Positions 47,175 through 61,774 of a DNA stretch of 61,774 nt are shown here, in pieces. A program made the position numbers and the translations under genes. Numbering within the stretch: position 1 is the first letter of the stretch; every line of letters starts with the position of its first letter. The DNA is from an uncultured Oscillospiraceae bacterium (GTDB lineage: Bacteria > Bacillota > Clostridia > Oscillospirales > Oscillospiraceae): contig CALXDH010000013.1 in NCBI GenBank assembly GCA_944387015.1, positions 1 to 61,774 of the forward strand, given 5' to 3'. The notes beneath the pieces were generated by a model. That model searched no databases. It was not told the origin of the DNA and saw only the letters and a list, made by a program, of their open reading frames with translations.

Positions 47175-48515
47175 ATGATGCGGAAGCGAATCCTGGCCTT
47201 TGTGCTGGCGGCGGCGCTGATCAGCTCACTGCTGGTCACGGCGGCCGTGGCGGAGGAGGACGGCGCTCCGGCGGAGGCCGCCCAGAGCGAAGAGAGCGCA
47301 CCGACGGAAAATCAAAGCAGCGAAACGACCGCCGTGACGGACGGTGAGAGCACTGCCGGGGAGACTGAGGAGCCCCAGCAGGACGCCGAGACCGAGATCC
47401 CGGCTCCAGACCCGGTGGGACAGCTGTCCTTTGCCAACCTGGAGAGCCGGATGCGGGAGAACAACCTGACGGTTTTGATGCTGGAAGAGAGCATTGCGTC
47501 CATCGACGAGATTGACTTTGACAAGATGCAGGAGGACCTGCGCGATCAGCTCAATGACATCGCAAAGCTGCAGTATGTCTCCATCGCCTATCCGGAGGCG
47601 GCAGGCGGAATGACCTTTGATTCCCTGCAGTCCAGTTACGACGCCCTCAAGGAGCAGTTTGACGATCTGAAAGAGGGCAAGATTCAGGACGACTACGACG
47701 CTGTCGTCCGCCAGCTGCGCAACACGGAAGATCAGATGATCAAGACGGCGGAGACCATTTACATCAACATCCTGGAACTGCAGAACACCGACGAACAGCT
47801 CCAGCGGTCTCTTGCGGCCATGAACCGTACGGTGCAGGAAATGGAGCTGCGCTATGATCTGGGGCAGATCTCCGCCCTGCAGCTTCAGCAGACGGAGAGC
47901 GGCCGTACCCAGCTCAAAAGCAACCTGGAGACGGTGGAGATGAATCTGGACAATCTCATCGTCCAAATGGAAGTGATGATCGGCGCGGAGCAGACCGGTG
48001 CACTGAAGCTGGGGGAGATCCCGGACGTCACCGATGAGCAGATCGCCGCCATGGACCTGGAAAAGGATCTGGCCGCGGCCAAGGAGGTCAGCTATGCCCT
48101 CTTCGACGCCCAGAAGACGCTCAACGACGCCAAGGAGACCTATGAAGATGCCATTGACGGCAAGGGCATCAGCTCCTACCAGCGAAAGTCTGCCGAGCAT
48201 ACCTGGAAGGCGGCACAGTACACCTATGAGGCTGCCGTGCAGTCCTTTGAACTGAGCTTCCGCACGGCGTTCAATGCCGTGACGGACCAGCAGCAGATCC
48301 TCAAGGCCTCTCAGACGGCCCTGGCGCTGCAGCAGGATACATACGCATCCATGGAACTCAAGTACCAGCAGGGAAGCATTTCCAAGAACGCGCTGCAGGA
48401 CGCCAAGGATGACCTGGACGACGCGCAGACGGCGGTGGACACCGCCCGGCACAACCTGTTTACTGCCTATCGGACTTATCGCTGGGCTGTGGACAGGGGA
48501 CTTTTGAATACCTGA
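47175..48515 (+). CDS. TolC/OEP-like coiled-coil protein
   Basis: 446 aa. Signal peptide (RKRILAFVLAAALISSLLVT, AVAEE), an acidic Ser/Glu/Thr-rich linker of about 60 residues, then long alternating helices with TolC-family features: LENLxxxxxxNNLTVLMLEE, EMELRYDLGQISALQLQQTE, YASMELKYQQGSISKNALQD, and FTAYRTYRWAVDRG. The last is the ExxxxYxxGxxSxxxxxxA-type repeat of the family. In Gram-negative bacteria TolC forms the outer-membrane duct. Here the protein is next to a membrane-fusion protein and an RND pump. If the organism is monoderm, its location is unclear. ATG 47175 or ATG 47178 is the start (GGAGGAG upstream). Confidence 0.85.
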   Translation: MMRKRILAFVLAAALISSLLVTAAVAEEDGAPAEAAQSEESAPTENQSSETTAVTDGESTAGETEEPQQDAETEIPAPDPVGQLSFANLESRMRENNLTVLMLEESIASIDEIDFDKMQEDLRDQLNDIAKLQYVSIAYPEAAGGMTFDSLQSSYDALKEQFDDLKEGKIQDDYDAVVRQLRNTEDQMIKTAETIYINILELQNTDEQLQRSLAAMNRTVQEMELRYDLGQISALQLQQTESGRTQLKSNLETVEMNLDNLIVQMEVMIGAEQTGALKLGEIPDVTDEQIAAMDLEKDLAAAKEVSYALFDAQKTLNDAKETYEDAIDGKGISSYQRKSAEHTWKAAQYTYEAAVQSFELSFRTAFNAVTDQQQILKASQTALALQQDTYASMELKYQQGSISKNALQDAKDDLDDAQTAVDTARHNLFTAYRTYRWAVDRGLLNT

Positions 48516-48530
48516 TTTCGGAGGCAACGC

Positions 48531-49706
48531 ATGAGTAAGAATAAACAATGGCTGGCGGCTGCACTGGCAGCTGTCATGGTACTGGGCCTGACCGCCTGCG
48601 GCAGCGGTGAGGAGCAGGAGAATACGGAAAGTGAACCTGCCGCCGGCACCGCTGTGCAGGTACAGTCTGTTACGCTGGACAGTATCGCTACGGAGAATAC
48701 GGTCTCCGGCCAGGTGACGGCGGAGGATACCTCCACCATTTTTGTCTCTGTGGCGGCAAAGTGCACCGCGGTGAATTATGAGGCAGGCGACATTATCAAC
48801 GCCGGCGATGTGATCTGCACCCTGGACCTGGGAAGCACCATCTCCTCCTACAATGCGGCAAATATCAACTACCAGTCCTCGGTCCAGAGCTATCAGGACC
48901 AGGCGGCGGTGTTCCAGTCTCAGATCGAGCTGTATCAGAAAAACGTGAACGACCTCAAGGCACTCTTTGAGATCGGTGCCGCCTCCCAGGCGGAGATCGA
49001 TCAGGCGGAGCTGCAGCTTCAGTCCGCCATCGCCACCCGGAACTCCACGCTTGCCCAGCTGGAGGCCGGGATGGAGAGCGCCAAGTCCAGCGTGGAGCAG
49101 CTGTCCACCGCGCTGGAGAACGTGGACGGTGCCGGTAATGTGATCGCTCCCATGTCCGGCACCCTGGTGACCATGAACGCCGTGGAAAAAAGCTTCATCT
49201 CCACCACCATGCCGGTGGCGGTGATCGACGGCGCCGACCAGATGAAGGTCACCGTCTCCGTGGCGGAGACCCTGGTGCCCAAGCTGACCATTGGGGACAG
49301 CGCGGACGTCTCCGTCAGCGCTGCCGGCCAGACCTTCACCGGCACCATCCGGGCGGTGGAGCGCTCTGCCAATCAGCAGACCAAGCTCTATACCGTCACC
49401 CTGGGCGTGCCTGCGGACGTCAGCGGACTGCTCTCCGGCATGTCCGCGGAGGTGACGTTCCACACGGACCGCTCCGACAACACCGTGGTGGTGCCCTCGG
49501 AGTGCATCCTCAGCAGCGGCGAGAGCCAGTATGTTTACATCGTGGCGGACGACGCCGCCAAGAAGGTGGAAGTGACCACGGGACTTACCAGCAGCGGCGT
49601 GACGGAGGTCACCTCCGGATTGCAGGAGGGGGACCAGCTGGTCGTGGTGGGCCAGGCTTATCTGGAGGACGGCGCCCTGGTCCGGATCGTGGACGGGGAG
49701 GACTGA
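48531..49706 (+). CDS. RND efflux membrane-fusion (adaptor) lipoprotein
   Basis: 391 aa. Signal with lipobox LGLTACG near residue 20, then a barrel-sandwich/lipoyl domain (VSGQVTAEDTSTIFVSVAA, IINAGDVICTLD), a coiled-coil hairpin of about 100 residues (IELYQKNVNDLKALFEIGAA), beta-barrel and MP domains. It is the adaptor that links an RND pump to a TolC-type duct. It starts 15 bases after the TolC-like gene and ends 6 bases before the pump. Confidence 0.9.
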   Translation: MSKNKQWLAAALAAVMVLGLTACGSGEEQENTESEPAAGTAVQVQSVTLDSIATENTVSGQVTAEDTSTIFVSVAAKCTAVNYEAGDIINAGDVICTLDLGSTISSYNAANINYQSSVQSYQDQAAVFQSQIELYQKNVNDLKALFEIGAASQAEIDQAELQLQSAIATRNSTLAQLEAGMESAKSSVEQLSTALENVDGAGNVIAPMSGTLVTMNAVEKSFISTTMPVAVIDGADQMKVTVSVAETLVPKLTIGDSADVSVSAAGQTFTGTIRAVERSANQQTKLYTVTLGVPADVSGLLSGMSAEVTFHTDRSDNTVVVPSECILSSGESQYVYIVADDAAKKVEVTTGLTSSGVTEVTSGLQEGDQLVVVGQAYLEDGALVRIVDGED

Positions 49707-49712
49707 CAGCGG

Positions 49713-52700
49713 ATGAGTGCGGCAAAGTTTAGCATCCAGCACAAGGTGACCACGCTGCTGGCGGTCATCATGATCAGCGTGTTCGGCGTGATGTTCACCA
49801 CCCAGCTGCAGATGGCGCTGCTGCCGGACATGGAATTTCCGGCGGCGGTGGTCATGTGCTATTACAGCGGCGCCAGCCCCAGCGATATGGAGGAGCTGGT
49901 GACCCGTCCCCTGGAGGCGGCCGTCATGTCGGTCCCCGGCGTGGATGAGGTGCAGTCCACCTCTTCCGACGGCGTCAGCCAGGTGCAGATCACCTACGTG
50001 GACGGTACGGACGTGGACATCGCTGCCACCAAGCTGCGGGAGCAGTTCGACATGCTCTCCCTGCCGGACGGCGCCATGGACCCCGTTATTGTCAATATCA
50101 ATGTCAGTGACCTGATGCCCACCGCCATGATCGCCCTGATGGGCGAGGACCTGGCGGACCTGCAGTCCCTGGCGGACGACGTGGTGGTGCCGGCGCTGGA
50201 GCGGATCAACGGCGTGGCCTCCGTGGATGTTTACGGTGGTGTAGACCAGCAGATCGCCGTGGAGCTGGATGCCGCCCGGACCGCGGAACTGGGCCTTTCC
50301 AACAGCTATGTCTCCCAGATCCTGACGGCGGAGAACCTGCTCTATCCCGGCGGCGACCTGCAGAGCGGCTCCAAGAAGCTGACCGTCAGTACCGACGCCA
50401 AGTTCCAGTCGGTGGAGGACGTGGCCAATATGCTCGTTCCCCTGCCCACCGGCGGCACGGTCCGCCTGGGCGAGGTGGCGAACGTGGCATTGGAGACCAC
50501 GGACCCCGACACCATTGCCGACATGAACGCCACCAGCTGTGTGCTGCTGCAGATCTCCAAGCAGTCCGGCGCCAATGAGGTGGCCACTTCCGAGGCGGTG
50601 GTGGAGCGGCTGGACGAACTGGCGGCGGAAAATCCCTCCGTCCACTATGCGGCGCCCTACCTTGCTTCGGATTACATCAATCTCTCCGTGGAGTCCGCAC
50701 TGCAGAACATCGTGCTGGGCGTGGTGCTGGCGGCCATCGTGGTGTTCTTGTTCCTGCGCCGCTGGGGTGCTACCATGACCATCGCCATCTCCATGCCGGT
50801 GTGCATCCTGACGGTGTTCATTTTGATGAACGTGTTCGACCTGACGCTGAACATGATGAGTCTGGGCGGCATTGCCATGGGCGTGGGCATGATCGTGGAT
50901 AACTCCATCGTGGTGCTGGAAAACATCTACCGCTTTGCCGCGGAGGGCCATGACCGGCTCAGCGCCTGTGTGGAGGGAACCAAGGAGGTCACCACTTCCG
51001 TGGTGGCGTCCACGCTGACCACTGTGGCGGTGTTTTTGCCCCTGGGCCTCTCCGGCGGCATCGCCGGGATGATGTTCAAGGACTTCTCCCTGACCATCGC
51101 CTTTTTGATCCTGTCGTCCCTGGTGATCGCCCTGACGCTGGTACCCCTTTTGTGCTACATGCTGCTGGACGAGAACAAGGTCCGCCAGCAGGCGATGAAG
51201 AAGGGCCAGCGGCCCGCCAACCGTCTGGTGGCCCGGGTCGGCGGATGGATCGCCCGGCTCAGCAGCCTCTACCAGCGGCTGCTGCGGTACTTCGTCTACC
51301 ACCTGAAAACCGGAATGCTGGTGTCTGTTGGCATGGTGGCGATTTTTGCGGTGTGCTGTTTGTCCACCAATATGGTCCTGATCCCGGAGATGGACCAGGG
51401 CACCGTTTCCATCAGCGTGTCCATGCCCATCGGCTCCGAAGTGGAGGAGACCAGCGCCATCACCGACCGGATCACCGGCATCGTGGAGCGGGACGTGCCG
51501 GAGCTGGAGAGCATGTACGCCATGTCTCAGGCGGAATCCGCCACCATCGGGCTGAACCTGGTGGGCAAGAGCGAGCGGAGCCGCAGCAGTTCGGATATTG
51601 CAAACGATCTGCGGGTGGCGATGCAGGACATCGCCGGCTGTGAGATCACTGCCAGTGCTTCCCAGATGACCGGCATGACCAGCGGCGACGACATCAGTGT
51701 GGAGATCACCGGCGACGACTACGACACCCTGGCCATGGTCGCCGGGGACCTGACGAACCAGATCTCCGCGCTTCCTGACGCCGTGGACGTTACCAACTCC
51801 CTCAGCGAGCAGGTGCCGCAGGTGAAGGTGACCATGCGGCGGGAGGCGGCTGCCCAGTACGGGCTGACTGCCGCTGCGGTGGGCGCTGCCGTCCGGGCGG
51901 AGCTCACCGGCGCTACTGCCACCACCGTTACCATCGATAACCAGGAGCTGGACGTGATCGTCCGGGGCGACGGAGCGGCCTCCGAGAGCCTGGATGCCCT
52001 GCGCTCCATGGCCATTGCCTCCAGCCGCGGCGGCTATGTGCCCCTTTCCGCGGTGGCGGAGGTTTCCGTGGAGCAGGCCCCCCAGAGCATCAACCGCTCC
52101 AATCAGTCCCGGGTGGTGACCATTACCGGTGATACCATCAGCGGCAACACCACCGAGATCACCAAGCAGATCACTGCCATCCTGGATGGCTACACCATGC
52201 CCGAGGGCTATACCGCCCAGATCACCGGCAGCTACTCCGATATGATGGAGAGCTTTGGGGATCTGCTGCTGGCGCTGCTGGTGGCGCTGGGATTGGTGTA
52301 CTTCATCCTGGCGGCCCAGTTTGAGTCCTTTGCCATGCCGGTGATCGTGATGATGATCTTGCCGGTGGCCTTTACCGGGGCGCTGTTTGCCCTGCCGGTG
52401 ACGGGCCGGGACCTGTCCATGATCTCCATGGTGGCCCTCATCATGCTGGCCGGTACGGTGGTCAACTCCTCCATTATCCTGGTGGAGTATATCAAGATCC
52501 GCCGGAATATGGGCGAGAGCCGGGAAGAGGCCATTTTGAAGGCCTGCCCGCTCCGGGTGCGGCCGGTGATGATGACCACGCTCACCACCGTCCTCGCCAT
52601 GGTCCCCATGGCCATGGGCTGGGGCGACACCAATGAGATGATGAGCGACATGGGCATTACCATGATCAGCGGCATGGTGATCTCCACCGTGGTGACGTTG

Positions 52701-52826
52701 CTCTTTACGCCGGTGTACTACTCTGTCATCGACAATCTGGCCCACCGCCGTCCCCGCCGCAAGCAGCCCCCTGCGGAGGGCACCGCTGCGGAGACGGGGG
52801 CAAGGGAACTGCCCGCCGGCGTGTAA
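49713..52826 (+). CDS. RND-type multidrug efflux pump (SwrC/AcrB-like)
   Basis: 1037 aa with the RND layout: span 1, a large external loop, six spans, a second large loop, six spans. The key TM4 segment reads GMIVDNSIVVLENIYRF. It has one acidic residue of the usual Asp-Asp pair followed by Asn, as in SwrC/YerP-type pumps of Firmicutes. The family exports lipopeptides, drugs or fatty acids with proton coupling. Encoded directly after TolC-like and adaptor genes and a two-component system. A large antisense frame across this gene is a composition artefact. Confidence 0.92.
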   Translation: MSAAKFSIQHKVTTLLAVIMISVFGVMFTTQLQMALLPDMEFPAAVVMCYYSGASPSDMEELVTRPLEAAVMSVPGVDEVQSTSSDGVSQVQITYVDGTDVDIAATKLREQFDMLSLPDGAMDPVIVNINVSDLMPTAMIALMGEDLADLQSLADDVVVPALERINGVASVDVYGGVDQQIAVELDAARTAELGLSNSYVSQILTAENLLYPGGDLQSGSKKLTVSTDAKFQSVEDVANMLVPLPTGGTVRLGEVANVALETTDPDTIADMNATSCVLLQISKQSGANEVATSEAVVERLDELAAENPSVHYAAPYLASDYINLSVESALQNIVLGVVLAAIVVFLFLRRWGATMTIAISMPVCILTVFILMNVFDLTLNMMSLGGIAMGVGMIVDNSIVVLENIYRFAAEGHDRLSACVEGTKEVTTSVVASTLTTVAVFLPLGLSGGIAGMMFKDFSLTIAFLILSSLVIALTLVPLLCYMLLDENKVRQQAMKKGQRPANRLVARVGGWIARLSSLYQRLLRYFVYHLKTGMLVSVGMVAIFAVCCLSTNMVLIPEMDQGTVSISVSMPIGSEVEETSAITDRITGIVERDVPELESMYAMSQAESATIGLNLVGKSERSRSSSDIANDLRVAMQDIAGCEITASASQMTGMTSGDDISVEITGDDYDTLAMVAGDLTNQISALPDAVDVTNSLSEQVPQVKVTMRREAAAQYGLTAAAVGAAVRAELTGATATTVTIDNQELDVIVRGDGAASESLDALRSMAIASSRGGYVPLSAVAEVSVEQAPQSINRSNQSRVVTITGDTISGNTTEITKQITAILDGYTMPEGYTAQITGSYSDMMESFGDLLLALLVALGLVYFILAAQFESFAMPVIVMMILPVAFTGALFALPVTGRDLSMISMVALIMLAGTVVNSSIILVEYIKIRRNMGESREEAILKACPLRVRPVMMTTLTTVLAMVPMAMGWGDTNEMMSDMGITMISGMVISTVVTLLFTPVYYSVIDNLAHRRPRRKQPPAEGTAAETGARELPAGV

Positions 52827-52851: not shown

Positions 52852-52887
52852 AAGCGCCTCTGTCCCTTGGGACGGAGGCGCTGTTTT
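52852..52887. terminator. Bidirectional terminator between RND pump and rpoN
   Basis: AAAGCGCCTCTGTCCC and GGGACGGAGGCGCT with a TT loop and following TTTTC. Confidence 0.85.
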
Positions 52888-52899
52888 CGATGGAGGACG

Positions 52900-54240
52900 T
52901 CAGGCCCGCTTCCGGGCGGTGGAACTGCCGATCCCCAGTTCCAAGCGGTACTTGGCCACTGTCCGTCGGGCCACCTGGACGCCCTGGGTGCTCAAAAGCT
53001 GGGAGAGCTTCTGGTCACTGAGGGGGTGGCGGGGATCCTCTTTCTGGATCAGCTCCAGCAGCCTGTGCTTGACGGCCTGGCGGGAGGGGCCGGATGCCCC
53101 CACAGCCAGACTGAAAAAGTATCGAAGGGGGTAGGTGCCCTGCCGGCACTGGAGGTATTTGCCCCGGGCGGTACGGGACACGGTGGAGGGGTGGACGCCC
53201 AGCTGGTTTGCCAGGGCGGAGAGGCGCATGGGGGAAAGCTCTGTGGACTCCCCGGTGAAGAAGGGGCGCTGAGCCTCCAGAATGGCCTCGGCGCACTGGC
53301 GCAGCGTATTGCCGCGGCGCTCCAGACTGCTCAGCAGCCATTTGGCCTGCTGCATCTTCTCCCGGAGATAGGTCCGGGTCTTGGCGTCATCCGACTCCTT
53401 GAGGAGCCGGGCGTAGTAGGTGCTGATGGACATGCGGGGCAGGTAGTAGTCGTTGAGCACCACCTTGAGCTGTCCATCCAGCTCCACGATGAACACATCC
53501 GGCTGGACGTAGACCGTAGGCTCCGCCGGCTCAAAGGCGCGCCCCGGGTGGGGGTCCAGTCCGGCGATGATCTTCTCCGCTGCCTGGACCTCCTCGACGG
53601 TGATGCCCAGCGCCCGGGCGATGGGGCCGTAGTGCTTGCGGCCCAGCTCCGGCAGGAACCGGGAGGCGATGTCGATGGACACCTGGCAGGCACCCTGGCG
53701 CCGCAGCTGCAGCACCAGACACTCCGAGAGATCCCGGGCGCCCACCCCCGGCGGGTCCAGGGACTGGAGCTCTGTCAGGGCCCGGTCCGTCAGGTCCCGG
53801 GGCAGCTTCAGCTCCTCCAGCCCCTCCAGATCCTCCGGTGTCAGATAGCCGTCCTCGTCCACCAGCTCTGCCAGATAGGTACACAGCGCCAGCAGGGGCT
53901 TGTCCAAATGCAGCCGTTCCAGTTGGTCCCGGAGAAAGGCGGCGAGACTCTCCGTCTCCCGGTCCGCGGCGCCCCGCTCCGGTACGGTCCCGTCCTCATG
54001 GAGAAAGGTGCCGCCCTGGGGACCGGCGTCCAGCCAGCTGGCGGCCCGGCGCAGCTGGGCGTAGGCGTTTTGCAGACTGGCGGGGCTCTCTGCCTCCAGC
54101 AGGGGGTTTTCCTCGCTGGCCCGGCTGAGATATTCCGCCAGGTCCTGTACGTTCATCTGCAGAACTTCCATGGACTGGAGCAGCTGGGGCGTGAGCTTGA
54201 GCTCCTGCCGCAGTTCGGTTTTTAATGAGACCAGGCTCAT
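52900..54240 (-). CDS. rpoN: Sigma-54 (RpoN)
   Basis: 446 aa. Region I begins LKTELRQELKLTPQLLQSME with Gln/Leu-rich activator contacts. The core-binding region follows. An HTH near HPSTVSRTARGKYL and the RpoN box ARRTVAKYR at about 424-432 recognise -24/-12 elements. The start ATG overlaps the stop of the upstream activator gene by four bases. The neighbour is the activator that would work with it and the divergent butyrate genes have a near-consensus -24/-12 promoter, so RpoN is coexpressed with its own dedicated enhancer-binding protein. Confidence 0.95.
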   Translation of the reverse strand: MSLVSLKTELRQELKLTPQLLQSMEVLQMNVQDLAEYLSRASEENPLLEAESPASLQNAYAQLRRAASWLDAGPQGGTFLHEDGTVPERGAADRETESLAAFLRDQLERLHLDKPLLALCTYLAELVDEDGYLTPEDLEGLEELKLPRDLTDRALTELQSLDPPGVGARDLSECLVLQLRRQGACQVSIDIASRFLPELGRKHYGPIARALGITVEEVQAAEKIIAGLDPHPGRAFEPAEPTVYVQPDVFIVELDGQLKVVLNDYYLPRMSISTYYARLLKESDDAKTRTYLREKMQQAKWLLSSLERRGNTLRQCAEAILEAQRPFFTGESTELSPMRLSALANQLGVHPSTVSRTARGKYLQCRQGTYPLRYFFSLAVGASGPSRQAVKHRLLELIQKEDPRHPLSDQKLSQLLSTQGVQVARRTVAKYRLELGIGSSTARKRA

Positions 54241-55685
54241 GTGGCGCTCCTCTCTCCGCCTTTGCCGCTGACGTACTTGGCCACTTTTCGGGCCGCGGTG
54301 GCCTGGGAGATTCCCAGCTCCTTGGCGACCGCCACGGTGGTGCCGCAGCGGCGGTAGGTATCCCGGATGATCTCGCCTTCATAGGCGTCCATTCGCTCCG
54401 CAAGGGACCCCCGCTGGGCCAGCAGCTCCGCCGGGGGGACCGCGTCGCCGGTGTATTCCACCGGCAGGGCCGTGGTGTCGATGATGGGGTCCTGGACAGT
54501 GATGACCAGCCGCTCGATCAGGTTTTCCAGCTGCCGGACGTTGCCGGGCCAGTCATATTGCTCCAAAAAGGCCAGAAAGCGGGGGCTGAAGGTGAGATTC
54601 TTTCCATACTCGCCGCTGAAGCGGGCCAGGAACTGGTGGGCCAGGGGGAAGATGTCTTCCTTCCGGGACCGCAGGGGCGGGATGTGGATGCGGATGACGT
54701 TGAGCCGATAAAAAAGATCGGAGCGGAACAGCCCCCGCTGCACTTCCTCCTCCAGATTCCGGTTGGTGGCTACGATCAGCCGGAAGTCCAGGGAGATCCG
54801 CCGGTTGCCGGAGAGGCGCTCGATGGTCTTTTCCTGAATGAGCTGGAGGAGCTTGGACTGGATGTGGAGGGGGAGCTCGCCGATCTCATCGAGAAACAGC
54901 GTGCCGTGGTTTGCAAGCTCGATCTTGCCGATCTTGCCGGTGGAGGAGGCGCCAGTGAAAGCGCCCTTCTCGTAGCCGAAGAGCTCCGACTCGATGAGGT
55001 TTTCATGGAGCACGGCGCAGTTGACCTCGATGAAGGGGCCGTCGGCCCGGTTGCTCATCTTGTGGATGGCCTTGGCAATGGCGCTTTTGCCCACGCCGGT
55101 CTCGCCGGTGATGAGGATGTTGGCCTTGGTGTTGGCGGTATTCTGCATCAGCGTCCACAGCCGCTGCATGGAATTGCTCTTGAAGACCAGAGAGGTGGAG
55201 GTGGCCCGGGTGCGCAGCTCCGCGATCTCCTGGGAGTACTGCTGCAGGGAGTCCTGGAGATGCTGGTAGTTGCGCTGGATGGTGTTGATCTGCTCCAGAG
55301 AGACGGTGTTGAAGCACACCACATATTTCAGCTCCCCGCTGCCGTCGCAGAGGGGGATGCCTACGGTCATGACATTTTTATGGGTGTGGTTGATGGTCTG
55401 GGTGGTGACGATCTTCTTCCGCTGGCGGATGACCTCCGCCGTAATGCAGGGCTGGAAGGTGCCGTCTGTCTCCAGATCGAAGGCGGATTTGCCTACGATG
55501 GAGCCGTGGGCAAAGCCAAAGTTGTGCTCATAGGTCTCACTGACCCGCAAAATGGTGCCCTTGGCGTCGGAGAGCATCATGTCATCTGCCAGGACCAGGT
55601 TGTTTTCGGGGCTGAGGATCTCGAAAAGCCCCTTCAGATTGATGTCCTCGTCCAGGAGGTGGCTCAGATGGGTTTCCTGTGACAT
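54237..55685 (-). CDS. Sigma-54-dependent PAS-AAA+ activator
   Basis: 482 aa from ATG 55685 with GAGAAAGGCAGG upstream; longer starts have no RBS. Residues 30-130 form a PAS-like sensor, then AAA+ domain with Walker A GETGVGKS at 194-201, GAFTGA at 241-246 and Walker B GTLFLDEIG at 261-269, and a C-terminal HTH (GTTVAVAKELGISQATAARK). It has everything needed for sigma-54 activation. Three TATTCA-N4-TGAATA palindromes lie in the divergent gap, two of them 39-75 bases upstream of its own start. It likely senses an acyl-CoA or related metabolite. Confidence 0.93.
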   Translation of the reverse strand: MSQETHLSHLLDEDINLKGLFEILSPENNLVLADDMMLSDAKGTILRVSETYEHNFGFAHGSIVGKSAFDLETDGTFQPCITAEVIRQRKKIVTTQTINHTHKNVMTVGIPLCDGSGELKYVVCFNTVSLEQINTIQRNYQHLQDSLQQYSQEIAELRTRATSTSLVFKSNSMQRLWTLMQNTANTKANILITGETGVGKSAIAKAIHKMSNRADGPFIEVNCAVLHENLIESELFGYEKGAFTGASSTGKIGKIELANHGTLFLDEIGELPLHIQSKLLQLIQEKTIERLSGNRRISLDFRLIVATNRNLEEEVQRGLFRSDLFYRLNVIRIHIPPLRSRKEDIFPLAHQFLARFSGEYGKNLTFSPRFLAFLEQYDWPGNVRQLENLIERLVITVQDPIIDTTALPVEYTGDAVPPAELLAQRGSLAERMDAYEGEIIRDTYRRCGTTVAVAKELGISQATAARKVAKYVSGKGGERSAT

Positions 55686-55723
55686 GTGTTGCCTGCCTTT
55701 CTCCGCCAGAGACGGATGGTGTC

Positions 55724-55760
55724 TATTCAAAAATGAGTATACCATATTCAAGAATGAATA
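55724..55760. promoter_or_regulatory. Two copies of an enhancer palindrome (UAS)
   Basis: TATTCA-AAAA-TGAGTA (55724-55739) and TATTCA-AGAA-TGAATA (55745-55760) have the same 16-bp palindromic layout. They lie in the leader/promoter of the activator gene, and a TATACT -10 candidate (minus strand, 55736-55741) is overlapped, which suggests autoregulation. Confidence 0.8.
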
Positions 55761-55881
55761 AAAAGAGGCAATTTTCAAAAAAGTTCGCCGCAATGCGCCG
55801 GAACTGGCAAAAAATGGAATGGAATTTGGAAGCTCCCACAAAAAAGCATCAGGGACCTGCCGGACAGCTCCCTGGGGAAGC

Positions 55882-55897
55882 TATTCATTTTTGAATA
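55882..55897. promoter_or_regulatory. Third copy of the enhancer palindrome
   Basis: TATTCA-TTTT-TGAATA, a perfect dyad about 130 bases upstream of the -12 element at 56024. Distance and symmetry fit an upstream activator site. Confidence 0.8.
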
Positions 55898-56009
55898 ACG
55901 GATGCGAGCGAGTTCCAGCGCCGCTGGTAAAGTAAACAAAAACAACTGAATTGTTTTGGACAAAACATACAGAAACCGGCGGCGAATTCCTAAAAAAGCG
56001 GGAGAAAAC

Positions 56010-56027
56010 TTGGCACGATAATTGCTT
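56010..56027 (+). promoter_or_regulatory. Sigma-54 (-24/-12) promoter of the butyrate operon
   Basis: TTGGCACGATAATTGCTT. GG (-24) and GC (-12) are separated by ten bases, as required, and the match to TGGCACG-N4-TTGCW is complete. The crotonase start codon lies about 70 bases downstream. The remainder of the 55686-56096 gap holds three enhancer palindromes and no gene. Confidence 0.9.
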
Positions 56028-56096
56028 ATATTTTTAAACGAGCAAGTATGCAGCGGCAGCAAAAGCCGCACTCAAAATAAAAGGAGGAATACTTCC

Positions 56097-56870
56097 ATGC
56101 CGACCATTCGTTATGAGAAGCAGGACAACATTGGAATTATTACCATCAACCGCCCCGAGGCGCTCAACGCGCTGAACACCGCCGTGTTCAACGAGCTGGA
56201 GCCTCTGGTGGGCGAGATCGAGCGGGACGCCACGCTGGCCGCGCTGATCATCACTGGTGAGGGCCGTTCCTTTGTGGCCGGCGCCGACATCGGCGAGCAG
56301 TGCCCCATGGATCTGGAAGCCGGCCGGAAGTGGGCCCGGAGAGGTTCCTCCGTGTTCCGCCGCATCGAGAAGCTGGAGATCCCCACCATCGCCGCGGTGA
56401 ACGGTTTCGCCCTGGGCGGCGGCTGTGAGCTGGCCCTGGCCTGCGACATCATCCTGGCTTCCGAGAAGGCCAAGTTCGGTCAGCCCGAGGTGGGCCTGGG
56501 CATCACCCCCGGCTTCTCCGGCACCCAGCGGCTGCCCCGTCGGGTGGGCATCGGCAAGGCCAAGGAGCTGATTTTCTCCGGCAAGATGATCAAGGCCGAC
56601 GAGGCCAAGGCCATCGGTCTTGTCAACGAGGTCTATGCTCCTGAGGCGCTGATGGACGCCGCTCTGGAGATGGCCCGTTCCTTCACCAAGAACGCTCCCA
56701 TCGCCGTGAAGTATGCCAAGGCTTGCATCGACCGGGGCATGCAGATGGATCTGGACGACGGCATCGCCCTGGAGAACGAGATGTTCGCCATGTGCTACGC
56801 CACCGCCGACCAGAAGGAAGGCATGACCGCGTTCCTGGAGAAGCGTCCTGCCGTTTTCCAGAACAAGTGA
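56097..56870 (+). CDS. Crotonase (enoyl-CoA hydratase/3-hydroxybutyryl-CoA dehydratase)
   Basis: 257 aa from ATG 56097 with AAGGAGGAAT upstream. Crotonase-fold motifs: AGADIGEQCPMD, NGFALGGGCELALACD with E111 and PEVGLGITPGFSGTQRLPR with E131, the two catalytic glutamates of hydratases. It interconverts 3-hydroxybutyryl-CoA and crotonyl-CoA. In this operon, with AbfD producing crotonyl-CoA, its exact task is open; it could also act on other short enoyl-CoAs. Confidence 0.93.
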   Translation: MPTIRYEKQDNIGIITINRPEALNALNTAVFNELEPLVGEIERDATLAALIITGEGRSFVAGADIGEQCPMDLEAGRKWARRGSSVFRRIEKLEIPTIAAVNGFALGGGCELALACDIILASEKAKFGQPEVGLGITPGFSGTQRLPRRVGIGKAKELIFSGKMIKADEAKAIGLVNEVYAPEALMDAALEMARSFTKNAPIAVKYAKACIDRGMQMDLDDGIALENEMFAMCYATADQKEGMTAFLEKRPAVFQNK

Positions 56871-56886: not shown

Positions 56887-58449
56887 ATGAGAAAAACACC
56901 GGTTCTCACCCCTCAGGAGGCCGCCCTGCTGGTGCGGGACGGCGATACCCTGGCCTCGGGAGGGTTTGTGAGCAGTGCCTGCCCGGAAGCATTGTCCTCC
57001 GCGCTGGAGCGGCGGTTTCTGGAGACGGGGCACCCCCGGGACCTGACGCTGTTTTTCGGCGCCGGGCACGGAAACCGCAACGGCACCGGCGGCGACCATT
57101 ACGGCCATGCGGGCATGGTCCGGCGGGTGGTCTGCGGCCATTGGGACCGCACCCCGCGTCTGGGGGCGCTGGCGCTGGAGGGAAAAATCGAGGCCTATAA
57201 CCTGCCTCAGGGCGTCATCACCCACATGTACCGGGACATCGCCGCCCATAATCCGGCGACGCTGTCCAAGGTGGGATTACATACCTTTGTGGACCCCCGG
57301 CTGGAGGGCGGAAAGCTCAACGGGCGGACGAAGGAAGACCTGGTGAAGCTGGTGGAGGTGGAAGGGCAGGAATGTCTGCTCTACCGCTGTTTTCCGGTGA
57401 ACGCCGTCTTTCTCCGGGCCAGCTGGGCCGATGAATACGGCAACTGCACCGCCCACCGGGAAATCGGGCCCACGGACCTCACTGCCATGGCCCAGGCTTG
57501 CCGGAATTCCGGCGGCAAGGTCATCGTGCAGGTGGAAAAAATCGTCGCCGGCGGCACGCTGGACCCAAAACTGGTGGTCATTCCCGGTATCTATGTGGAT
57601 GCCATCGTGGTAGGATCAGAAGCAGAGCACCAGCAGTGCATGGACGCCGCCTATGACGGCAGCCTCACCGGGGAGTTCCGGGCGCCTGCAGATGCGCTGG
57701 CGCCGCTGCCGCTGGACGCACGGAAGGTCATTGCCCGCCGGGCAGCCATGGAGCTGCGGCCGGGAGCGGTGGTGAACCTGGGCGTGGGGATCCCGGAGCG
57801 GGTGGCCCGCGTGGCGGCGGAGGAAGGCATCTCCCAGGAGATGACGCTGACGGTGGAGGCCGGCAGTGTCGGCGGGGTACCCAGAGGGGGCACCCAGTTC
57901 GGCGGCGCGGCCAATCCCGCGGCCATCCTGCCGCAGAATGTGCAGTTTGACTTTTATCACGGCGGCGGGCTGGACATCGCCTGCCTTGGCATGGCCGAGA
58001 TCGCGCCGGGGGGAGACGTGAACGTCTCCCGGTTCCATGGGCGGCTGGCCGGCTCCGGCGGCTTTATCGACATCAGTCAGAACGCCGGCGAAGTGGTGTT
58101 CTGCGGGACCTTTACCGCCCACGGGCTGGACGCCGTCTGCGAGGACGGCAAGCTGGTGGTGCGGCGGGAGGGAGACGTGGGCAAATTCGTCTCCGCCGTG
58201 GAACAGGTCACGTTTTCCGGGGATTACGCCGTCCGGCGGGGCCAGCGGGTGCTGTATGTTACGGAGCGGGCAGTGTTTGCCCTGCAAAGCGGCGGCGTGA
58301 CGCTGACCGAGATCGCACCGGGCATCGACCTGCAGACCCAGATCCTGGATCAGATGGCATTCATGCCCCGGATCTCCGAGGATCTCAAGCTGATGGACGA
58401 ACGGATTTTCCAGCCGGGCCTCATGGGGCTTGGCCGGGGAGATTTTTGA
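56887..58449 (+). CDS. Fused short-chain CoA-transferase (propionate/4-hydroxybutyrate type)
   Basis: 520 aa joining alpha and beta halves. N-terminal segment VRDGDTLASGGFVSSACPEAL is the CoA-binding opening, and the catalytic Glu is E324 in TVEAGSVGGVP, matching the family motif around the glutamate that forms the thioester intermediate. Such enzymes move CoA from acetyl- or butyryl-CoA to 4-hydroxybutyrate, propionate or similar acids. Its position between crotonase and 4-hydroxybutyryl-CoA dehydratase suggests it makes 4-hydroxybutyryl-CoA. It follows crotonase by 16 bases. Confidence 0.88.
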   Translation: MRKTPVLTPQEAALLVRDGDTLASGGFVSSACPEALSSALERRFLETGHPRDLTLFFGAGHGNRNGTGGDHYGHAGMVRRVVCGHWDRTPRLGALALEGKIEAYNLPQGVITHMYRDIAAHNPATLSKVGLHTFVDPRLEGGKLNGRTKEDLVKLVEVEGQECLLYRCFPVNAVFLRASWADEYGNCTAHREIGPTDLTAMAQACRNSGGKVIVQVEKIVAGGTLDPKLVVIPGIYVDAIVVGSEAEHQQCMDAAYDGSLTGEFRAPADALAPLPLDARKVIARRAAMELRPGAVVNLGVGIPERVARVAAEEGISQEMTLTVEAGSVGGVPRGGTQFGGAANPAAILPQNVQFDFYHGGGLDIACLGMAEIAPGGDVNVSRFHGRLAGSGGFIDISQNAGEVVFCGTFTAHGLDAVCEDGKLVVRREGDVGKFVSAVEQVTFSGDYAVRRGQRVLYVTERAVFALQSGGVTLTEIAPGIDLQTQILDQMAFMPRISEDLKLMDERIFQPGLMGLGRGDF

Positions 58450-58517: not shown

Positions 58518-59996
58518 ATGGCACTGAAGACACCCCAGGAGTACATCGAGAGCCTGCGTCAGCTGAAAACGCGGGTGTACATGTTCGGCGAGAAGATCGA
58601 CAACTGGGTGGATCACCCCATGATCCGTCCCAGCATCAACTGCGTCGCCATGACCTACGCCCTGGCCCAGGATCCCCAGTACGCGGATCTGATGACCGTC
58701 AAGTCCAGCCTGACCGGCCACACCATCAACCGCTTCACCCACCTGCATCAGTCCACCGAGGACCTGATCAACAAGGTGAAGATGCAGCGTCTGCTGGGTC
58801 AGAAGACCGCTTCCTGCTTCCAGCGCTGCGTGGGCATGGACTCCTTCAACGCTGTGTTTTCCACCACCTTCGAAGTGGACGAGAAGTACGGCACCCACTA
58901 TCATGAGAACTTCAAGAAGTTCCTGACCATGGTCCAGGACAACGACCTGACCGTGGACGGCGCCATGACCGACCCCAAGGGCGACCGCTCCAAGGCTCCC
59001 CATGACCAGGCCGATCCCGATATGTTCGTCCACGTTGTGGAGCGCCGCGCTGACGGCATCGTGGTCTGCGGCGCCAAGTGCCACCAGACTGGCTCCATCA
59101 ACTCCCACTGGCACATCTTCATGCCCACCATCTCCATGAGCGAGGCCGACAAGGACTGGGCGGTTTCCTTCGCCTGCCCCACTGACGCCGAGGGCATGTA
59201 TATGATCTACGGCCGTCAGTCCTGCGACACCCGTAAGCTGGAGGAGGACGCCTCCATCGATGTGGGCAACGCCAAGTTCGGCGGCCAGGAGGCCCTGGTG
59301 GTGCTGGACCACGTGTTCATCCCCAACGAGTACATCTTCCTCAACGGCGAGTATGAGTTCGCCGGCATGATGGTGGAGCGTTTCGCCGGCTATCACCGTC
59401 AGAGCTACGGCGGCTGCAAGGTCGGCGTGGGCGACACCCTGATCGGCGCCACCGCTCTGGCCGCTGAGTACAACGGTGTGGAGAAGGCCAGCGCTGTCAA
59501 GGACAAGCTGATCGAGATGACCCACCTGAACGAGACCCTGTATTGCTGCGGCATCGCCTGCTCTTCTCAGGGCTTCAAGACCAAGGCGGGCAACTATCAG
59601 ATCGATCTGCTGCTGGCCAACGTCTGCAAGCAGAACGTCACCCGCTTCCCCTATGAGATCGTCCGCCTGGCTGAGGACATCGCCGGCGGCCTGGTGGTCA
59701 CCATGCCCTCTCAGAAGGACTTCCACTCCGACACGGTGGTGGGCCGCAACGGTGAGACCATCGGCGAGATCTGCAACAAGTTCTTCGCCACCCGCGAGGG
59801 CGTCAGCACCGAGAACCGTCAGCGCATCCTGCGCTTCATCGAGAACCTGTGCCTGGGTGCCGCCGCTGTCGGCTACCGCACCGAGTCCATGCACGGCGCC
59901 GGTTCTCCCCAGGCCCAGCGCATCATGATCGCCCGTCAGGGCAACATCCAGGGCAAGAAGCAGCTTGCCAAGGACATCGCCGGCATCACCGACTGA
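58518..59996 (+). CDS. abfD: 4-hydroxybutyryl-CoA dehydratase/vinylacetyl-CoA delta-isomerase
   Basis: 492 aa. The [4Fe-4S] and flavin site of the C. aminobutyricum enzyme (C99, C103, H292, C299) is conserved with one residue offset: C100 and C104 in ASCFQRCVGMD and H293 and C300 in GYHRQSYGGCK. It converts 4-hydroxybutyryl-CoA to crotonyl-CoA by a ketyl-radical mechanism. It is the key enzyme of 4-aminobutyrate and succinate fermentation to butyrate. RBS AGGAGGAA. From here on codon choice (CGT, AAG, ATC, GGC) suggests high expression. Confidence 0.95.
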   Translation: MALKTPQEYIESLRQLKTRVYMFGEKIDNWVDHPMIRPSINCVAMTYALAQDPQYADLMTVKSSLTGHTINRFTHLHQSTEDLINKVKMQRLLGQKTASCFQRCVGMDSFNAVFSTTFEVDEKYGTHYHENFKKFLTMVQDNDLTVDGAMTDPKGDRSKAPHDQADPDMFVHVVERRADGIVVCGAKCHQTGSINSHWHIFMPTISMSEADKDWAVSFACPTDAEGMYMIYGRQSCDTRKLEEDASIDVGNAKFGGQEALVVLDHVFIPNEYIFLNGEYEFAGMMVERFAGYHRQSYGGCKVGVGDTLIGATALAAEYNGVEKASAVKDKLIEMTHLNETLYCCGIACSSQGFKTKAGNYQIDLLLANVCKQNVTRFPYEIVRLAEDIAGGLVVTMPSQKDFHSDTVVGRNGETIGEICNKFFATREGVSTENRQRILRFIENLCLGAAAVGYRTESMHGAGSPQAQRIMIARQGNIQGKKQLAKDIAGITD

Positions 59997-60188: not shown

Positions 60189-61328
<1,140 letters not shown>

Positions 61329-61346: not shown

Positions 61347-61774
61347 ATGAAGATCATTGTTTGCGTCAAGCAGGTCCCCGATACCTCCGGTAAGGTGGCT
61401 GTCAATCCCGACGGCACCCTGAACCGTGCATCCATGCAGACCATCACCAACCCCGACGACATGAACGCCGTGGAGGCCGCCCTGAAGCTCAAGGACGCCA
61501 CCGGCTGCAAGGTCATCGTGGTCACCATGGGCCCCGCTCCCGCTGCCGGCATGCTGCGTGAGCTGATGGCCATGGGCGCCGACGAGGGCGTTCTGGTTTC
61601 CGCCCGTGAGTTCGGCGGCTCCGATACCTACGCCACCTCTCAGATCCTGGCTGCCGCCATTTCCACCATCGGTGTGGAGAGCGACGACATCGTCATGTGC
61701 GGCCGTCAGGCCATCGACGGCGATACCGCCCAGGTCGGTCCCCAGATCGCTGAGAAGCTGCACCTGCCCCAGGT
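61347..61774 (+). CDS. etfB: Electron transfer flavoprotein beta subunit, 5' part (cut by window end)
   Basis: Starts MKIIVCVKQVPDTSGKVAVN after AGAGGAGGAAG. The visible 142 residues include TMGPAPAAGMLRELMAMGAD and VMCGRQAIDGDTAQVGPQIA, typical of EtfB. It pairs with an EtfA expected just beyond the window to form the electron carrier for the upstream dehydrogenase. Confidence 0.95.
   Translation, partial: MKIIVCVKQVPDTSGKVAVNPDGTLNRASMQTITNPDDMNAVEAALKLKDATGCKVIVVTMGPAPAAGMLRELMAMGADEGVLVSAREFGGSDTYATSQILAAAISTIGVESDDIVMCGRQAIDGDTAQVGPQIAEKLHLPQ

Follow-up and report, generated by a model that had tools for sequence, protein, structure and literature searches.

In this work we have investigated a window of 61,774 nucleotides, the whole of contig C13 in the 2.42-Mb, 72-contig genome of an uncultured Oscillospiraceae bacterium, and in particular the 411-bp divergent interval which separates the gene of a sigma-54 enhancer-binding protein (EBP) from a butyrate operon. 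Our reading, to which we assign a probability of about 85%, is that this EBP, three palindromic sites and a -24/-12 promoter make up a sigma-54 switch of the crt-ctf-abfD-bcd-etf operon, and that the EBP probably also regulates its own gene together with rpoN, the gene of sigma-54 which follows it. According to the proposed mechanism, the EBP would act as a one-component regulator that binds the three palindromes of the interval, its PAS domain sensing an intracellular signal. The DNA would then loop, the GAFTGA loops of the AAA+ ring would contact sigma-54 at -24/-12, and ATP hydrolysis would open the promoter. The EBP bound to sites 1 and 2 would at the same time cover an extended -10 element, probably lowering its own synthesis and that of RpoN. 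The parts of this switch, their fixed layout, the association of EBP and palindromes in trans and the single target are those which emerge from the sequence comparisons described below.

The activator (54237-55685, minus strand, 482 amino acids from an ATG start) was recognised by profile, translation and fold evidence. Its AAA+ domain (residues 167-410) matches PF00158 with 225.6 bits and in fold resembles the AAA+ domains of NtrC1, LuxO and FleQ, and the GAFTGA motif named in the initial annotation is indeed seen in the translation. It is followed by a C-terminal helix-turn-helix (HTH) at about residues 428-471 (PF18024, 31.4 bits, cut-off 27). With these domains and the conserved sites upstream of the operon, the protein qualifies on sequence grounds as a sigma-54 EBP. 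The assignment of a PAS-like domain to residues of about 34-128 comes from structure comparison: each of the 50 matches which Foldseek listed with the N-terminal model as query is a PAS or LOV protein, with E values of 5.7e-7 to 4.8e-5 and low query TM-scores of 0.41-0.52, and the Pfam PAS match stays below its cut-off (21.1 vs 27).

The promoter of the operon, TTGGCACG-N4-TTGCT at 56010-56026 on the plus strand, was found by pattern search and by conservation of the interval. It agrees with the consensus TTGGCAY-N5-TTGCW and has 10 bp between GG and GC, so the exact spacing claimed for it earlier holds. It is the sole exact match in the genome; allowing one mismatch gave one further place, and the reversed-pattern control then also gave two. 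A relaxed pattern matched seven times in the genome and its control twice. The relaxed matches on contigs C4, C23 and C36 fall within open frames and were left uncounted, and the one on C5 lies within a 302-amino-acid frame, 81 bp upstream of a 478-amino-acid frame.

Between the two genes the palindrome search found three sites, one of them off by a single base, where the initial annotation had reported TATTCA-N4-TGAATA palindromes. Site 1 (55724-55739) reads TATTCA-N4-TGAGTA and has the one mismatch, site 2 (55745-55760), 21 bp from it, is exact, and so is site 3 (55882-55897), whose start precedes the -24/-12 element by 128 bp. With up to one mismatch allowed, the window holds these three palindromes, while 100 shuffled versions had 0.03 on average and in no case as many as three. 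In the whole genome only one more was found, on contig C64, and the reversed control gave three. Lone one-mismatch palindromes are thus at chance level and the three-site cluster is not, given three control hits genome-wide and 0.03 per shuffled window. The C64 palindrome, the fourth in the genome, was dropped: the contig (4.8 kb) is probably a contaminant because its GC content is 36%, whereas the genome is at about 60% (five other stretches gave 58-62%). Its frames appear from their translations to be gatB-like and porin-like. The genome as a whole has an estimated completeness of 99.6% and contamination of 1.4%.

Is this layout kept in relatives? Our search of a species-genome collection found 242 relatives of the activator, of which the best 80 were kept, giving 78 loci. 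Orthologs were taken to be the 46 loci L018-L063, which are 65-98% identical, the next rows being at most 42% identical over comparable lengths; judged by the activator, the closest record with a name is that of Oscillibacter sp. CAG:155 (98% identity). GAFTGA is retained in 45 of the 46 orthologs, and 40 have the HTH stretch GISQATAARK without a change, while of the remaining six one is cut and one unreadable there. The intervals compared also number 46, namely 35 attached ones, the window included, and 11 detached ones (terms explained below), and all contain the site triple (up to three mismatches were allowed per site, and zero to five were observed per triple, most in L030), with sites 1 and 2 spaced by 21 bp in 45 and by 20 bp in one. 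The -24/-12 element is recognisable in 45 intervals, with no, one, two or three mismatches in 16, 15, 13 and 1 of them, respectively. We call a locus attached when the palindromes lie beside the EBP gene (34 relatives and the window) and detached when none is there (11 loci, the status of L054 having been judged on 252 bp). In L034 the EBP is at a contig edge, and we count it as really attached because half of site 1 is visible at that edge.

The detached loci allowed a prediction to be tested, namely that where the EBP sits apart from the operon, the sites should stay with the operon. We probed the 12 genomes whose EBP lacks adjacent sites and found exact palindromes in 11, all of them before the crt operon; the twelfth, that of L034, has no exact palindrome. 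The 11 detached operon stretches, two of which end early (L122 within crt and L118 within abfD), carry no EBP or rpoN match. This association in trans is the strongest evidence, as far as sequences can tell, that EBP, palindromes and operon belong together as a unit. The 34 attached genomes have 62 exact palindromes in total, every one of them inside the divergent interval, one or two in each of 33 genomes, whereas the reversed control found none in any of the 34; the sites of L030 all have mismatches. Since exact palindromes occur only before the operon in the 11 detached genomes and never outside the interval in the 34 attached ones, the activator looks like a single-target EBP.

Could the palindromes nevertheless be the sites of a different regulator, such as a repressor acting on the divergent genes, with the EBP using other sites? 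The binding of the EBP to the palindromes is deduced from sequence, and sites 1 and 2 overlap a putative promoter as repressor sites do. However, the palindromes co-occur with the EBP in the detached genomes despite their separate positions. Moreover, in a sample of 200 genomes of the family the EBP (E <=1e-120) was found in two, and a close palindrome pair occurred in the same two and in none of the 198 others, although other co-occurring regulators were not searched for. One of the two, G167, carries the same sites as the genome of L026 and is not an additional case. We therefore regard a separate palindrome-binding regulator as improbable. Twelve EBP-less genomes of the sample hold 13 isolated palindromes, which we take as chance although the reversed control gave only 6; at their loci (1.6-3.0 kb) none of the seven proteins was found at E <=1e-20. 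The expectation that related acyl-CoA operons elsewhere carry the same palindrome was not borne out in the genomes searched. In Aquibacillus (L068) and Mesobacillus (L065), beside EBPs 40-42% identical to ours, palindromes near -24/-12 elements resembled our motif; they were rejected as shared targets because they form hairpin stems, terminator-like in character, immediately downstream of the EBP gene. In two Clostridium loci (L064, L066) the palindromes of a homologous activator read AATACA/TGTATT instead, and an exact -24/-12 element follows downstream; these loci perhaps represent a related regulon with an altered site.

The second role that we ascribe to the EBP concerns its own promoter. 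On the EBP strand, running from the linker into site 1, the pattern TGnTATAMT (TGnTATACT or TGnTATAAT) is present in all 35 attached loci and in none of the 11 detached ones; in the window this conserved pattern is TGGTATACT at 55736-55744 on the minus strand, a candidate extended -10 of the activator-rpoN promoter which overlaps site 1. In attached loci site 1 always has TGAGTA or TGATTA, and it is the deviating base that completes the -10. A detached EBP, L036, has its own TGGTATACT 43 bp before the aligned start, without palindromes. It is plausible from this pattern that the element is the promoter of the EBP and rpoN and that it would be blocked by the EBP on sites 1 and 2. Two observations count against such a role: a sigma-70 consensus scan of the activator-rpoN promoter region found no promoter, and the contrast between attached and detached loci may amount to only one or two events because in a quick tree the detached loci form one clade of ten and one long-branched row. 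It is also possible that sigma-54 and the EBP activate the operon without any autoregulation, the EBP-rpoN promoter overlapping two enhancer sites by chance. A role at the operon alone would explain sites 1 and 2, because their spacing is kept in the 11 detached operons (21 bp in 10, 20 bp in 1) where there is no EBP promoter; the -35 of the putative promoter is weak as well, a TT-rich stretch beyond site 2 which in the window reads TTTTTA (55759-55764). On the other side, the extended -10 lies in all 35 attached loci inside site 1 and the linker, exactly where bound EBP would block the polymerase. We consider activation without autoregulation a considerable possibility, and prefer the switch with probable autoregulation.

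Next to the activator gene lies rpoN (52900-54240, minus strand, 446 amino acids). The encoded protein has the activator-interacting, core-binding and DNA-binding domains of a sigma-54 and matches TIGR02395 with 396.7 bits (cut-off 277.35). The overlap of rpoN with the activator gene that the initial annotation described, in a span which left out rpoN itself, consists of 4 bp, the TGA stop of the activator lying within the rpoN start as ATGA (54237-54240). The same annotation saw in this a self-contained switch whose rpoN is dedicated to the butyrate operon. The overlap would fit such an arrangement, and so would the fact that rpoN adjoins the EBP downstream in 39 of the 46 loci. However, in four of the other seven (L030, L055, L058 and L060) rpoN is present in the genome away from the EBP; in L057 the EBP is cut by the contig end, and the assemblies of L032 and L053 have no rpoN. 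Across the 46 relatives the sigma-54 DNA-binding domain gave one strong match in 44 (five with an extra weak partial match) and none in two.

In the genome of the window this rpoN is likewise the single sigma-54 gene, and there are three other strong AAA+ activators, one with GAFSGA, one with GSFTGA and one without the motif; six weak PF00158 matches (26-36 bits) were not counted as EBPs. Both variants still permit activation, as stated in the part of Nie 2019 (PMC6615313) used here. The GSFTGA activator is divergent from a frame that we read as transporter-like, before whose likely start lies ATGGCATG-N4-TTGCT (C26:19029-19044); this match overlaps the first codons of the gene's longest frame, the likely start being about 60 bp further on. 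Another match, TGGCATAGAATTTGCT (TGGCAY-N5-TTGCW, C49:11764-11779), is intergenic, about 90 bp before an ATG and outside frames of at least 150 amino acids, and is a possible further sigma-54 promoter. Sigma-54 is thus very probably common to several activators in this genome, because there is one rpoN, two further EBPs have working-type motif variants, and further -24/-12 matches occur on C26 and C49. Neither a second sigma-54 gene nor a lack of other usable EBPs, as would be expected of a dedicated factor, was found, and we consider a dedicated sigma-54 very unlikely. What survives of the earlier claim is the sigma-54 control unit for the butyrate operon, which the comparative evidence supports.

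How far site 3 lies from the -24/-12 element varies stepwise over 45 intervals, with clusters near 128, 138 and 148 bp: the distance is 126-130 bp in 27, 137-140 in 12, 147-150 in three and 95, 157 and 161 in one each, with none at 131-136, 141-146 or 151-156. In a scan of periods from 8 to 14 bp the best was 10.5-10.75, with a resultant length of 0.82 for the 45 related sequences; with the 14 distinct distance values alone the resultant length is 0.65-0.67 at 10.5-11. These steps of about 10 bp are no more than suggestive of DNA looping between site 3 and the promoter.

In one locus (L053:2700-4690) several parts of the circuit have been lost together. There rpoN is gone from both locus and assembly, the EBP has YEKDSSTGSARK at the GAFTGA position, and at the operon promoter GT replaces the -12 GC and GGGTG replaces TGGCA. 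Sites 2 and 3 have stayed exact; site 1 deviates at two positions, and the extended -10 is kept. The promoter stretch contains a sigma-70-like TTGCAA-18 bp-TATAAA, a pair which also overlaps the -24/-12 element of L031 and L032. We put forward, as a speculation that we ourselves find doubtful, that this single-target activator governs how much sigma-54 the cell has: while bound at the butyrate operon it would also close the promoter shared by its own gene and the one rpoN, so that butyrate control would feed back on all sigma-54 transcription, and relatives losing rpoN would turn the operon promoter into a sigma-70 type.

Several observations weigh against our interpretation and should be set beside it. 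L053 has no recognisable -24/-12 element and in that of L052 GT replaces GG. L053 is a single metagenome-assembled genome, and in L032 only a remnant of rpoN is left (L032:3390-3540), yet GAFTGA and the -24/-12 element are kept. The helical spacing reaches only p ~0.03 when six self-chosen clusters are treated as events at a fixed 10.5 bp. Finally, in aggregate biofilms of C. difficile the proteomic data excerpted from PMC8225356 show AbfD to be lower while sigma-54 and many of its EBPs are raised; sigma-54 control of abfD is therefore not transferable to all clostridia.

The operon itself lies on the plus strand. Profile searches identified its first gene as crt, an enoyl-CoA hydratase or crotonase (56097-56870). 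It is followed by a YdiF-like class I CoA-transferase (56887-58449; 2ahu, 457.9 bits), by abfD for 4-hydroxybutyryl-CoA dehydratase (58518-59996), by bcd for butyryl-CoA dehydrogenase (60189-61328; 5ol2, 510.5 bits) and by etfB (61347-61774, from translation and profile search), which is cut by the contig end; in two relatives (L060, L120) a frame read from its translation as etfA comes next. The identity of AbfD is well defined, PDB 1u8v matching residues 3-490 of 492 with 904.8 bits, against 639 for the vinylacetyl-CoA Delta-isomerase 6vjr and 111.4 for the best 4-hydroxyphenylacetate hydroxylase. Taken by their sequences, the enzymes fit a route from 4-hydroxybutyryl-CoA through crotonyl-CoA to butyryl-CoA. 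That 4-hydroxybutyrate is the substrate of the CoA-transferase is what we infer from abfD, because the transferase is known only as class I. Elsewhere in the genome, C44 has another abfD-like gene with 57% identity, and next to it another frame resembling an acyl-CoA dehydrogenase. On the far side of rpoN three frames at 47175-52826 (plus strand), read from their translations as outer-membrane-efflux-like, membrane fusion and RND pump proteins, converge on it, with a hairpin at 52853-52882 where they meet.

Sigma-54 elements before abfD are not confined to this operon type. In the family sample we found 28 abfD loci in 18 of the 200 genomes, a number that includes the window and G167, in which abfD is not first in the operon, and in which one genome is represented by several copies. 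Nine (L151, L152, L154, L159, L163-L166 and L169) have a -24/-12 element within 300 bp upstream of abfD, in fact all within 112 bp, against about 0.25 expected from the remainder of the same loci. An EBP is present in eight of the nine; by their identity of 37-44% these proteins are not orthologous to ours, and no TATTCA palindrome was found in these loci. This suggests that sigma-54 control of abfD recurs with different activators and arose more than once.

For Oscillibacter and Dysosmobacter, two genera common in the gut, we found no account among the matches listed in the open-licence literature of how the butyrate genes are controlled; a precise candidate regulator, with its putative sites and promoter, can now be proposed for them. 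Nor did the matches listed from open-licence PMC papers describe the ortholog group, the palindrome, the single target or the rpoN neighbour. The relatives moreover offer natural experiments, such as detached operons, loss of rpoN accompanied by decay both of GAFTGA and of the -12 element, and spacing steps of about 10 bp, and these variants are useful for understanding how sigma-54 circuits arise and disappear.

Among known systems, the C. difficile sigma-54 promoters have been mapped in a study whose main text, in the portion available, does not treat abfD or 4-hydroxybutyrate (PMC7438776), and a term search found no butyrate terms in PMC12069270. The best-scoring named EBP model for our activator is PrdR (NCBIfam NF041552, 355.2 bits), far from the equivalog cut-off of 795, and the known target of PrdR is proline catabolism, unlike the butyrate operon here. 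A likeness to XylR of the TOL plasmid lies in the proposed autoregulation: according to the consulted part of PMC3469447, XylR reduces the transcription of its own gene by activating Ps, a promoter divergent from it, but it has another sensor and other targets, and rpoN is outside its loop. The closest parallels are the clostridial sigma-54 regulons for butyrate genes reconstructed in Nie 2019 (PMC6615313), of which we draw on a part. Like CrbR, XanR, XcgR, YctR and AhcR of that study, our EBP stands at a butyrate-type operon with an upstream activating sequence and a -24/-12 promoter in a genome with a single sigL; its Table 1 connects XanR with abfD, and CrbR and YctR with crt and bcd-etfAB. 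The sites of CrbR, XcgR and AhcR, TGT-N10-12-ACA, differ from the TATTCA palindrome, while the motifs of XanR and YctR are there termed distinct. Those EBPs come from other taxa, Oscillibacter being absent from the text drawn on, and the rpoN neighbour seen here is not described there for any of them. Because these regulons have been published, the control of butyrate genes by sigma-54 in clostridia is of a type already known; the setting described here is a new and unusually clear instance of it.

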